NCBI RefSeq assembly: GCF_017875325.1
Contig: NZ_JAGGMN010000001.1
Location: 2,438,140 to 2,502,139 of the forward strand
Origin: Methanofollis sp. W23
GTDB lineage: Archaea; Halobacteriota; Methanomicrobia; Methanomicrobiales; Methanofollaceae
DNA: 64,000 bases
Direction of reading: 5' to 3'
This document shows positions 5,549 through 60,436 of the stretch, piece by piece; the first letter of the stretch is position 1, and each line of letters opens with the position of its first letter. The position numbers and the translations under genes were made by a program. The notes below the pieces were generated by a model. The model was not told the DNA's origin. It was given only the letters and a program-made list of their open reading frames with translations, and did not search any database.

Positions 5549-5564
5549 TTTTTTTGAGTTTTTT
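5549..5564 (+). terminator. Oligo-T terminator after pdxT
   Basis: Two T-runs (5549-5555 and 5559-5564) directly follow the pdxT stop, consistent with archaeal intrinsic termination of the operon. Confidence 0.45.
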
Positions 5565-5781
5565 CTTCTGGAGCATATTCCAAAACTCTCTTGGGATGAA
5601 TATCTCTCTGAACTGAAGTGCATTCTTCCTGAGTTTTTACACTCTCTCCTCCACCGAGGGGCTCGCCGCTCGAAGATCAAATATCTTCTCAAGCTCGCTG
5701 GCGCTCGCACCCCCCTGACCCCACGCCGATGAAGATTGGTGGAGGATCCCATCTCGTGTTCCTGTTCCTGATCATCGCTCT

Positions 5782-36235: not shown

Positions 36236-36253
36236 AGAAATCAATAATAGTTA

Positions 36254-36559
36254 GGGGCGTGTCCTTGGTCGACAATGCGTGCCTGCACTTGCCGTGACTC
36301 CCCTTCTCCACCCCGCGCTCCCATGGGCGCCGTACGTTCACGGTAAGTCTGCTCCCTTCCGGGCCTGGACCGGTCTCCGCGACAACAGGTCTCCGCTCCC
36401 TCCAGAGCATCGATCCCTGGCCGTCGACCTCATGGGACAAGGCTTCTCAGTCGGGAAGCGCATGGCGCCTACAGATCGCCAAGGCCTTCCTCGGACTTCG
36501 CCCACCGCGTATCGGCGATTTCGGCTTACAGGTGACGCCTAACCACCCGGGCTAGCCCC
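36254..36559 (-). ncRNA. ffs: Archaeal signal recognition particle (7S) RNA
   Basis: Read on the minus strand, the region gives a roughly 306-nt RNA. Its 5' GGGGGC can pair with the 3' GCCCC. It has the Alu-domain region GGTTAGGCGTCACCTGTAAG and the domain IV signature CCAGGCCCGGAAGGGAGCAG, the apical loop and internal loop recognised by SRP54. The long helix-5 arms flank this. Length and motif order match archaeal SRP RNA. It lies between mdh and a methyltransferase gene, all on the minus strand, with its own promoter. Confidence 0.95.
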
Positions 36560-36574
36560 CATATATACTGTGAT

Positions 36575-52431: not shown

Positions 52432-52548
52432 ACTTTCAGTTTTGTAAAAATTTCCCCGAAAAATCTCTTTGTCGAAGATTTACTCTTCAGTCCCCCCGCC
52501 ACACGATTGGTCGAGGAAGGCCCCCTCTTCGTTGTGATCATCCATTCT

Positions 52549-52619
52549 GCCTTCCCGTTTCAATCTTCATCCCTGGGGGCCCGGGGCAACGCCCCCGGCG
52601 CGCAGGTGAGGGGGAGGCG
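52549..52619 (+). repeat. Palindromic intergenic repeat, copy 12
   Basis: It runs from GCCTTCCCG to GGGGGAGGCG and contains CAATCTTCATCCCTGGGGGC and the GGGGCAACGCCCC palindrome. Confidence 0.65.
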
Positions 52620-52722: not shown

Positions 52723-52790
52723 GCCTTCCCCATCTCTTCGGCTGGGGGCTCTGCCCCCGAACCCCGGGACCCCGATGAAGCCGGGAAGGC
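52723..52790 (-). repeat. Palindromic intergenic repeat, copy 13 (reverse orientation)
   Basis: It is bounded by GCCTTCCC and GGGAAGGC, contains GGGGGCTCTGCCCCC and ends ACCCCGATGAAG, the reverse of TCTTCATC-CCGGGGTC. Confidence 0.72.
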
Positions 52791-53126
52791 AGAATAGACG
52801 AACATGAAGAGGGAGGTGCAGTCTTCGACCTATCGTGTGGCTGGGGGGACCGGGGGGCGGCACGCCCCCCCCGCCAGAAAGTTCCATCCAGAGGGTTTCT
52901 CCAGAGTCGGAATTTAAGATTTACAGAGAATCTATCATCCTCAGATTGTTTCATGCTTGATACACAGAGGACAAAAAAAACCCTTCAGAATGATTGACTC
53001 TCCGCCTTCCCGTTACTCTCTTAATCTCAGGGAGAGTCAACTCCTGAATAATTCTGCGATCGCATCAAGTACCAGAGATATTCCCGGGAAAATCCGGGCG
53101 GTTTCATCTCTATTCAGGGGGGTCAA

Positions 53127-54270: not shown

Positions 54271-54699
54271 GGCGGAGCGAGAGATCAGAAATTCGCTCTG
54301 AATTTATCCCAGGAGTCTACAGGACATGACTCCTCGCCGAGATCAAGTCTCTCTCTAAGAACTCAACCCTTCTCTCCAGGGGCTGCACGATCGATCAAAG
54401 ACGGCACAACACTCTTTGAGATCTTCATTTGTGCCTCCCCGGCCTTATCTTCATCCCTGGGGTCCGGGGGAGCCGAGCCCCTGGCGCGGGCATGGAAGAA
54501 GGCATGACGATTATAATGGCCATCCCCGACGTAGATCTTCCTGTCATCTCTTGCCGGGGCGGCCATGCGATGATGCTCTGATGTGATGTCGTGCTCAGAT
54601 GGAGGCACATCGATTCAGTGCACGAGGAGGAGATTCATGATCATTTCATTCCCTATGCATGAGCAAGGGGTTCATGCCAGGTTCTGCACGGCCTATATT
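54271..54699. other. Gene-free stretch with one palindromic repeat
   Basis: It contains a repeat copy at 54433-54503 and no recognisable gene. Short open frames on both strands have no protein-like composition. Confidence 0.45.
54433..54503 (+). repeat. Palindromic intergenic repeat, copy 14
   Basis: GCCTCCCCGGCCTTATCTTC and TCCCTGGGGTCCGGGGG match copy 4. The inner palindrome reads GGGGGAGCCGAGCCCC, and the right arm is degraded to GGAAGAAGGC. Confidence 0.68.
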
Positions 54700-55979: not shown

Positions 55980-56159
55980 CTGCTCTCCTGGCATCGAAAC
56001 CACAGTCGAGCATTGTCTGAATAATATAAGAAGATATGGGATGCCGGTGAGTGGTGCAGAAAAGGGCAGGTATTTCCTCATTCCCAGGCTGGATAAAAGA
56101 GATCGACTGCGGTCCAGAAGAGGATTTTCAAGAACATTGGCTGAGCATCATGGTGCCCC

Positions 56160-56490
56160 AGAGGGCCTCTCCCCCATCCCTGGTCGGCCCTGCATCATGC
56201 CCCTTCGCCCATGGTCTTCAGCCGTTTTGACCATCAGGCCAGGCAAATGCAGCATCGCGCCCATTGAAGATAAGCCGGCGCCATGGCCGGTCGTCTTCAC
56301 TGCCCACAACCCCTCTGCTGGAGAAGACTTGTAGGCCCGACCAGTCACAGCCTTATCTTCGACCAGGCGTCTGTTCGGCCCAGTTACGGGGTTTTTTCAG
56401 CGTAATGGTGGCTTTCAAGCCGTTTCAGCCACCTGCCTCGCCCCGTCACCGCAGGGCAATCTCTGGATCGCGTCCCCTGAGGCAGGTCCA
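56160..56490 (-). ncRNA. Candidate structured non-coding RNA (unassigned)
   Basis: Minus-strand RNA with many perfect stems. From the 5' end: ACCTGCCTC (56479-56487) pairs with GAGGCAGGT (56431-56439). GGTGGCT (56427-56433) pairs with AGCCACC (56407-56413). TTACG/CGTAA pair at 56401-56405 and 56384-56388. GAAGATAAG (56352-56360) pairs with CTTATCTTC (56266-56274), enclosing GTCTTC/GAAGAC and CCGGC/GCCGG hairpins. CTGCAT/ATGCAG (56247-56252, 56190-56195) enclose ATGGTC/GACCAT (56229-56234, 56211-56216). ACGGGG/CCCCGT (56441-56446, 56386-56391) could form a pseudoknot. No coding frame fits. The RNase P core GGAAAGTCC is absent. The 3' end is uncertain. Confidence 0.55.
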
Positions 56491-56503: not shown

Positions 56504-56513
56504 CTATTTATAG
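56504..56513 (-). promoter_or_regulatory. TATA box of the candidate ncRNA
   Basis: CTATAAATAG on the minus strand is centred about 25 bp before the first stem of the structured RNA. Read on the plus strand (CTATTTATAG) it could also serve the RNase III-like gene, but its ATG at 56520 would then precede the expected start site. Confidence 0.5.
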
Positions 56514-56519
56514 TTTTTC

Positions 56520-57239
56520 ATGACAGAAGAGATAAACCAGATCAGGACCCCTCCTCCCCTGATGCACCAGACACTCAGGTGGCATGAGGTAGGAATCGAG
56601 CAGAACCTGCATATTCTTCTGGACGACCTTGTCGAGACGCGGGCCTCTCTTCCGTCAGGGAAACGACACACCATCGGGAAGATGGGACACTGGAGCTCTT
56701 CTCTTGAGACGATGATCGAGCGGATCGCAGCAGTCAAGGCTGAAGTGCAGCCCCATGTCGAGAGAGATCTTGGCTATGAGATCCAGACCCCTGAGATGTT
56801 TACCATGATTTTTTTCCAGCCAAGTACGCGAAATCTCTTCTCAGAGATTGCCGTTCATTTTAAGGATGGGAGTTGTTCTCTTTCACAGGAAAAATTAACT
56901 GAAATGGCTTCTCTCCACGACGTTGCCGAAGCGCTTGCATGGATCGGGGATGCCGCGTTGAAAATCGGAGTGCTTCGTGAGATCTGGACCCCGAGAACTG
57001 CAGATGCCGGCAAACTCTCAGAGAGAAGGAAGACATACGAGAGCAACGCGAATATGGCCAGACTTGCGGACCGGTGGGGGCTGTATGAATACCGGATCCA
57101 GTTTGATCCCCCGATACAGAAGAAGAAAAAAGAGATCGAACATATCAAGGGTACGCTTGTGGAAGGGGTGTTTGGGACTGTGTTTCTCCAGGCAGGACTG
57201 GAGGGTGTTGCCGGTGCAGCCAGGTTTTTGAGGCCATGA
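56520..57239 (+). CDS. RNase III-domain-like protein with altered active site
   Basis: The 239-residue protein has an unassigned N-terminal part (1-95) and then a region (about 125-237) resembling an RNase III endonuclease domain: EALAWIGDAALKIGVLREIW, LSERRKTYESNANMARLADR, WGLYEYRIQF and KGTLVEGVFGTVFLQAGLEG. Compared with ELEFLGDAVL and DALEALIGA of active enzymes, the Asp of GDA and the Glu of VEG are kept. The second Glu of the first motif is Ala, and the Asp of the second is Thr. There is no dsRNA-binding domain. It may be a mini-III-like or inactive RNA-binding enzyme. The start may be a later Met (56562). Confidence 0.65.
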   Translation: MTEEINQIRTPPPLMHQTLRWHEVGIEQNLHILLDDLVETRASLPSGKRHTIGKMGHWSSSLETMIERIAAVKAEVQPHVERDLGYEIQTPEMFTMIFFQPSTRNLFSEIAVHFKDGSCSLSQEKLTEMASLHDVAEALAWIGDAALKIGVLREIWTPRTADAGKLSERRKTYESNANMARLADRWGLYEYRIQFDPPIQKKKKEIEHIKGTLVEGVFGTVFLQAGLEGVAGAARFLRP

Positions 57240-59232: not shown

Positions 59233-59745
59233 TCATTCCTCCTTTTTTTTCTGGATTGTCATCTCGCAACGCTCGTCTCCCATACATCTGGCACGGACCG
59301 CGCGCAGGGTATACGAGGGATTGAGCCTCTCTACAGATGCAAGAGAGAAGGGCAGACACCAGGAGAACCCGGTCTCCTCCCCTGCCCCGACCTCACGCAA
59401 TGTCTTCAGGTGAGGGCACCCGGTCATCACAAGGGTCGCCGTCTCTTCAGAGGTGTCCATAACCGAGATCCTGAACTCGGGCCCGAAGATCACGGTCGTC
59501 CCGACCTGAAGGGCCTCTCCGATCTCCCCGGCGGTCTGTGTCGGGAACCTGAAGGTTTCGGCGATTGTCTTCATCTCTCGCCCAAGGGCGTACCAGACCA
59601 TCTGTTCCCGTTCCTCAGGGCTCTCCTTCTCGTTCCTGAGTGCACGGGCGTACAGAGCAGGCAGGAGTGAGGCGACCCGCGTTGCCACCTTCCACCGCGC
59701 CAGGGGCGGGACCTCCTCGACCAGGGCGCGCCTCACAGATATCAT
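59233..59745 (-). CDS. Cys-rich conserved protein, paralogue 1
   Basis: The 170-residue protein has an N-terminal helical half (VPPLARWKVATRVASLLPAL, MKTIAETFRFPTQTAGEIGE) and a C-terminal half with TLVMTGCPHLKTLREVGAGE, FSWCLPF, and RARCMGDERCEMTI. The four Cys could bind a metal or Fe-S cluster. The same layout occurs in the next gene upstream, which ends 18 bp away. The pattern recalls the L-2-amino-thiazoline-4-carboxylic acid hydrolase/V4R-like proteins of anaerobes, but this is tentative. Confidence 0.7.
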   Translation of the reverse strand: MISVRRALVEEVPPLARWKVATRVASLLPALYARALRNEKESPEEREQMVWYALGREMKTIAETFRFPTQTAGEIGEALQVGTTVIFGPEFRISVMDTSEETATLVMTGCPHLKTLREVGAGEETGFSWCLPFSLASVERLNPSYTLRAVRARCMGDERCEMTIQKKKEE

Positions 59746-59763: not shown

Positions 59764-60261
59764 TCAGCGCACCGGCTCGATCCTGATCTCGCACTGGTGG
59801 TCACCGACACAGATCCCGCTCTGGTAGGTGACGTCGTAGTCCGGGTTGAGCGAGGCCACTGCCGTTTCAGTATATGCCCGGCAGGCCTGACAGAGGGACG
59901 GCGTCTCTTCCCCGACCTCCCGTGCCCTGGAGACCAGCGGGCATGCCGTCGTACAGAGGGTTGCCGCGTCCTGGCTCCTCGCGATCTTCACTTCTCCCTG
60001 AAGTTCTGGGCCGAGCAGGAGCACAGAAAGGGTTCCAAATGCTCGTGCGACATCTCCCGCGTTTCTGAGTGGAAAGTTGAAGGCCCGCGCCAGTCCCGCC
60101 TGGCTCTTCCCGACTTCTTTCCATATCTCCTCGTCCAGGTCTTCAAAACCGTCCCCAAACCGTCTCCGTACTCCCCGGCTATATGCGATGGGAATCGCCG
60201 TCATCGCCCGCGTGGCAAGATTCCATCTGACCTCTACCGGGATCGTATTGATCTCAACCAT
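59764..60261 (-). CDS. Cys-rich conserved protein, paralogue 2
   Basis: The 165-residue protein is homologous to its neighbour: VEVRWNLATRAMTAIPIAYS, LARAFNFPLRNAGDVARAFG, TLCTTACPLVSRAREVGEET, LCQACRAY and ICVGDHQCEIRI. It has one extra Cys (CxxC) in the middle motif. The open frame extends upstream with a hydrophobic segment, but GGAGGTG lies 6 nt before the ATG at 60261, and the paralogue lacks that segment, so the shorter start was chosen. The two are likely to have arisen by tandem duplication. Confidence 0.7.
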   Translation of the reverse strand: MVEINTIPVEVRWNLATRAMTAIPIAYSRGVRRRFGDGFEDLDEEIWKEVGKSQAGLARAFNFPLRNAGDVARAFGTLSVLLLGPELQGEVKIARSQDAATLCTTACPLVSRAREVGEETPSLCQACRAYTETAVASLNPDYDVTYQSGICVGDHQCEIRIEPVR

Positions 60262-60436
60262 CACTCGCACCTCCACGTCGCGCTGTTTCGCGACGCAATA
60301 GAAACATATCGCACACAATATAAACATTGCCGGAAAAAAAATCGGGTATGTCATGCCGTCCCCAGGGTCGGCGTGGAGGGTCAGTCACCATTCTCCGGTC
60401 CATCTGGTCCTGTTCAGCGGTCGGTCGGGGCCATGA

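Follow-up and report, generated by a model that had tools for sequence, protein, structure and literature searches.

What does the GC-rich interval beside an RNase III-like gene encode, at positions 56160-56490 of the window (the whole stretch of 64,000 nucleotides analysed here, from Methanofollis sp. W23)? A sequence-only reading had proposed an unassigned, highly structured minus-strand RNA with its own promoter, and our analysis supports this interpretation as far as genome sequences can tell. The minus strand of the interval folds at −142.9 kcal/mol, compared with −128.0 ± 5.6 kcal/mol for shuffled sequences (z = −2.7; matched by 1 of 100 shuffles). Since the plus strand is nearly as stable relative to its own shuffles, folding alone is little proof of an RNA; the proposed high degree of structure is borne out by conservation and covariation in homologues.

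A conserved non-coding RNA closed by a terminal helix

BLAST of the region returned a match in 9 of the 11 other genomes of the genus, and 10 of the 12 Methanofollis genomes carry the conserved structured RNA. Most of its insertions and deletions are not multiples of three (1, 2, 5, 7 and 8), which marks the region as non-coding. Every homologue has a 5′ strand, GCCUC, that pairs with a 3′-terminal GGGGC, and the resulting terminal helix encloses the complete RNA. In the window this helix, P1, joins UGCCUCAGGG (56475-56484, minus strand) to CUCUGGGGCA (56154-56163, minus strand), and its pairs change from A-U to G-C among homologues and from C-G to G-C between families. Judged from this conserved helix, the RNA would span 56150-56487 on the minus strand; the locus had been placed correctly, whereas one end lies near 56150 rather than at 56160. 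The stems listed by the sequence-only reading fared unevenly. Its 9-bp long-range helix GAAGAUAAG/CUUAUCUUC lies exactly where proposed (56352-56360 with 56266-56274) and covaries, whereas the 9-bp stem thought to close the 5′ domain (ACCUGCCUC/GAGGCAGGU) is specific to the window sequence and absent from homologues, and two pseudoknots had been overlooked.

Architecture of the pseudoknot modules

The conserved unit is a fold-back pseudoknot of ~90 nt with two helices of ~10 bp, an asymmetric purine-rich internal loop and a loop of 12-13 nt. Its elements follow in the order outer helix, internal loop, inner helix and apical loop AAACGGCNGA, with the strand GGGCCGAAC right after the outer helix, and the CGGC of the loop pairs with a GCCG shortly downstream. 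Constrained folds of the modules commonly gave ~9-11 bp for both helices, nearly always 12 or 13 nt for the apical loop, and usually a lopsided internal loop in which 1-4 nt face 8-10. With such dimensions the hairpin could double back so that its loop docks at its own base.

Each RNA comprises one to three modules enclosed by the terminal helix; the window copy has two, modules 1 and 3, and a long middle arm, all on the minus strand. Pseudoknot domain 1 (56369-56460) is matched by models R1 and R2 (E = 7e-11), and its loop CGGC (56419-56422) pairs with the partner strand GCCG at 56376-56379, within GGGCCGAACAG. Domain 3, the 3′-most (56178-56261), matches R1, a covariance model of the 3′ module, with 91.6 bits (E = 8e-17); here the loop CGGC (56221-56224) pairs with GCCG at 56185-56188, within GGGCCGACCAG. 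The central arm (56266-56360), closed by the covarying long-range helix, occupies the place of the third pseudoknot domain in Methanolinea-type RNAs, and the middle arm of a relative (G006) gives a degenerate domain match at the same place (L070:7179-7271). Two other structural readings were set aside: the GGCC:GGCC pairing of the two docking strands given by RNAalifold is disrupted in G011, whose pseudoknot is preserved by compensation, and a kink-turn or K-loop does not fit the loop and internal loop of the module.

Covariation of helices and pseudoknot

Compensatory changes in the stems, named beforehand as a check on the proposal, occur in 36 of the 71 consensus pairs of 11 full-length sequences (members of the genus and one of another family, G027). 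An alignment of 55 modules from families f1, f2 and f5 has 90.6% of its cells paired and double changes in 18 of 21 pairs, with 275 double-change cells against 81 ± 9 in shuffles and a covariation score of 0.615 (shuffles, 0.208 ± 0.011; slid structures, at most 0.09), nested-helix counts that are biased in favour of those helices, to which the alignment had been fitted. The pseudoknot was left out of the alignment model; it pairs in all 55 modules, nearly always as CGGC/GCCG, the variants being one CAGC/GCUG and one CGGU/ACCG, both compensations, and one CGGC/GUCG. In family f4 the loop is mostly CGGU and its partner ACCG, a second and family-wide compensation, and the f4 alignment has 96.9% of cells paired and 29 double-change cells versus 8.8 ± 3.2. 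We regard the structured RNA at this locus as almost certainly real.

Distribution across methanogen families

A BLAST search with the DNA found no match beyond the genus; such a search would miss the RNA family, so covariance models were needed. The widest of them, R3, matches in 73 of 232 genomes of the class, to which BLAST adds four in f4, giving ~77 or about a third; conservation in related genomes, likewise named in advance as a check, is thus found within the genus (10 of 12) and well beyond it. Among the 393 sampled genomes of the phylum, model R2 found nothing convincing outside the class, its match in G259 (E = 0.004) being near chance, and phage and plasmid records yielded no match to the RNA. 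Pattern matches in viral and bacterial contigs were discarded as chance-level, as the model confirms the methanogen ones only and gives at most 29 bits elsewhere.

Module number varies between families: three tandem modules lie ~100 nt apart within the same terminal helix in f5, which includes Methanolinea, and the ~145-nt RNA of f4 has a single one. Genomes usually hold one locus; two are present in G044 (L142:5221 and 9055) and in G229 (L143 and L144). Diverged single-module copies also occur, two or three per genome, in G113 (C3:258124-258691 and C2:851063) and G112 (C1:249352-249851); two of them are ~400-500 nt apart, and their pseudoknot looks shortened to CGG/CCG.

Promoter and proposed role

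The sequence-only reading had also placed a TATA box ahead of the first stem, and CTATAAATAG is indeed found there at ~56506-56512 (minus strand), with A-rich BRE-like bases upstream. Of 27 RNAs in families f1, f2 and f5, nearly all have a TATA-like box 27-34 nt 5′ of the GCCUC of the 5′ helix, and this spacing is fixed whatever the neighbouring genes. We rank it as the best available evidence that the RNA would be its own transcription unit.

Taken as a whole, the data are best explained by a stand-alone, trans-acting RNA of pseudoknot modules that would serve as the core of a ribonucleoprotein (RNP) or as a protein-titrating decoy. This explanation holds about half of our confidence, and its mechanistic part that much or slightly less. 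The RNA would be made from its own archaeal TATA promoter and, as comparison of its homologues shows, consists of one to three compact fold-back modules within the closing terminal helix. In each of them the helix would bend back at the internal loop, bringing the apical CGGC onto the basal GCCG with which it pairs in the alignments. Because loop and docking strand are nearly invariant, the stems are free to change and the number of modules ranges from one to three, we propose that each module is a putative protein-binding site, recognized through the invariant loop and docking strand, and that the RNA may thereby act as an RNP core or a titrating decoy. The ligand may also be a metabolite or an RNA target. 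In Methanofollis and some relatives, a divergent Mini-III-like nuclease, as an optional and later partner, probably processes or turns over the RNA, a role suggested by adjacency and one-way co-occurrence.

The adjacent RNase III-like nuclease

The nuclease gene (56562-57239, plus strand) is divergent from the RNA and encodes an RNase III domain (PF00636, E = 8e-12) that carries the catalytic D and E of RNase III and Mini-III. Across the orthologue alignment, D130 and E201 are invariant, and A126 and T198 stand at the canonical E41 and D114 positions. The active site is therefore presumably of the Mini-III type, sharing with Mini-III the conserved D and E as well as the A and T, and the protein differs by ~70-110 extra N-terminal residues; it scores 20 against an NCBIfam RNase III cut-off of 166 bits. 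The domain had been recognized correctly from the letters, but the gene does not begin 30 bp away: the ATG further upstream, at 56520, lacks conservation, and the conserved start, ATG 56562, lies about 75 bp from the RNA. The protein matches no defence family in PADLOC, a search for related loci with the nuclease as query returned none, and AlphaFold run from two sequences gave a pLDDT of 43. The f4 genomes contain another RNase III-like family, distantly related (25-30% identity) and unlinked to the RNA (G039:C1:426149-426799 and similar places).

The link between gene and RNA, earlier called only positional, goes slightly further, though not as far as a required partnership. The divergent nuclease adjoins the RNA in 14 genomes (10 of the genus plus G027, G117, G119 and G120), and 26 of the 27 genomes with clear nuclease orthologues have the RNA, the exception (G048) being 77% complete. 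The link is not required, because ~50 RNA-bearing genomes, nearly all of f5 and about half of f4, are without such a nuclease. Within single genera, and with phylogeny ignored, the RNA is present in 11/11 nuclease genomes versus 15/24 others in the f4 genus (p = 0.019) and in 10/10 versus 0/2 in Methanofollis (p = 0.015). G004 has the flanking genes in position and neither RNA nor nuclease, a joint pattern for which one deletion or insertion could account. The nuclease gene is broken beside an intact RNA at L072 (G009), L071 (G010) and L078 (G027), the lesions across these genomes being an internal deletion, a stop/frameshift and frameshifts. Together with the one-way co-occurrence, this suggests a one-sided dependence, of the nuclease on the RNA. 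The pattern would suit a processing enzyme, a regulated enzyme or a decaying toxin; we favour processing or regulation.

The enzyme could nonetheless be central, with the RNA primarily its substrate or regulator in a dedicated pair, the enzyme cutting the long arm and the RNA controlling the enzyme in turn. Consistent with such a pair, the divergent adjacency persists in the 14 genomes while the outer neighbours change, the RNA accompanies 26 of the 27 nucleases and all 11 in the f4 genus (against 15/24, p = 0.019), and a long duplex arm forms the middle module in Methanofollis and in G027 and G117. However, the enzyme is absent from most RNA-bearing genomes, the RNA stays intact where the gene is broken, the p-values ignore phylogeny, and G119 retains a pseudoknot-like middle module beside its nuclease; a strict tie between long middle arm and nuclease adjacency, which we had considered, fails in that genome. 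We judge the dedicated pair unlikely. A two-component system, with the pseudoknot modules controlling or directing the Mini-III-like nuclease, is distinctly doubtful too; in it the RNA would have an older, nuclease-free role, and the enzyme would have been recruited to it in the Methanofollis, f2 and f4 lineages at least.

Tandem pseudoknots adjoining a nuclease that almost never occurs without the RNA, and that decays while the RNA is kept, also recall a type III-like toxin-antitoxin system, with the nuclease as toxin and the pseudoknots as RNA antitoxin. We consider this very improbable: the genes are divergent in all adjacent pairs instead of forming one transcript with the RNA first, the protein has an RNase III fold (PF00636) and is not a ToxN, AbiQ or TenpN (with no PADLOC match), the RNA sits at one syntenic place without a toxin in most f5 genomes, and no phage or plasmid match was found.

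Variable gene neighbourhoods

The RNA lies beside sodium symporter, DUF5591, DUF6908, Mntp and acetyl-CoA synthetase genes in f5, and beside what appear from their open reading frames (ORFs) to be an M42-like peptidase and an HD-like gene in f4. In Methanofollis and in g13 and g29, two genera of f2, it is divergently oriented to the RNase III-like gene. No neighbouring gene is common to all loci, and the strand of the downstream gene varies. Because neighbours and orientation differ between families, a cis-regulatory role is unlikely. A leader or riboswitch of the downstream gene would agree with the YtfJ gene that follows on the same strand in the window and in close relatives, but the next gene is convergent or unrelated in other members, the RNA is closed by a helix of its own and often carries a T-rich tail, and a constant position 5′ of related same-strand genes, as a riboswitch would have, was not found among the loci; we rate this even lower than the toxin-antitoxin reading. 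Chance structure in GC-rich intergenic DNA, which would suit the only moderately unusual fold of the single sequence (z = −2.7) and the similar plus strand, is refuted by the covariation counts and the order-wide conservation, and is extremely improbable.

The surroundings show further features. A GC-rich short dispersed repeat (GGGGAGTCCGGGGGGTCTCCCCCCGG-like) has several copies in this and sister genomes (window 52535-52618, 52723-52813 and 54432-54506; L064:4730-4930 and 5557-5669; L080:7949-8042), and in G001 copies lie between RNA and nuclease and past the RNA. Two tandem related ORFs at 59233-59745 and 59764-60354 of the window (minus strand) share a similar cysteine-containing C-terminal part, the former having no Pfam match.

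Comparison with known RNAs

The search of Rfam, another check named beforehand, gave no match: with Rfam 15 at gathering score there was none for the window copy or for 18 homologous loci, and relaxed searches (E up to 10) returned no related kind of RNA at the locus. Elsewhere in the window, Rfam identifies SRP RNA and two tRNAs. The archaeal SRP RNA (RF01857) matches at 36251-36562 (minus strand) only, and the sole match of archaeal RNase P RNA (RF00373) in the genome is at C1:1114136-1114471, in agreement with the earlier statement that this is no known housekeeping RNA. An H/ACA guide RNA, with two guide strands in an internal-loop pocket and an ANA box, was not found here either by Rfam or by structure, the 5′ side of the internal loop (mostly 1-4 nt) being too short for a guide.

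As no description of the RNA was found in the literature, and it is absent from Rfam, it appears to be a previously undescribed RNA class, the novelty being limited to the level of the class because no function has been shown. The RNA is present in most families of an important order of methanogens and has an unusual design of repeated fold-back pseudoknots; large structured RNAs conserved across an order usually do something basic. Its modules, loop and promoter, with natural variants of one to three modules and natural losses, offer a defined object for finding the protein that it would bind, and the RNA is also a test case for the targets of rare archaeal RNase III-like enzymes.

The nearest idea among known RNAs is the STAXI motif (RF01728), a tandem pseudoknot of unknown function, usually repeated three times, which occurs in Enterobacteria near DNA-handling genes and has UUCG loops (Weinberg et al. 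2010, PMC2864571). The tandem repetition of a pseudoknot is shared, but there is no sequence match (none to RF01728 at E up to 10), and the modules described here are enclosed by a terminal helix, behind a promoter at a fixed position. Type III antitoxin RNAs (ToxI, AbiQ/TenpIN) likewise combine tandem pseudoknots with a nearby nuclease gene, a likeness that holds for part of our RNA family; here, however, no Rfam match was obtained, the ~90-nt fold-back modules belong to one closed molecule, and the neighbour is a divergent gene of RNase III fold or, mostly, there is no nuclease at all. Decoy RNAs of the CsrB/RsmY type vary in their number of modules and expose one loop that is nearly invariant. 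The RNA described here is archaeal and has no sequence or structure relation to them; it shares both the variable module number and the nearly invariant exposed loop, which suggests repeated protein binding.
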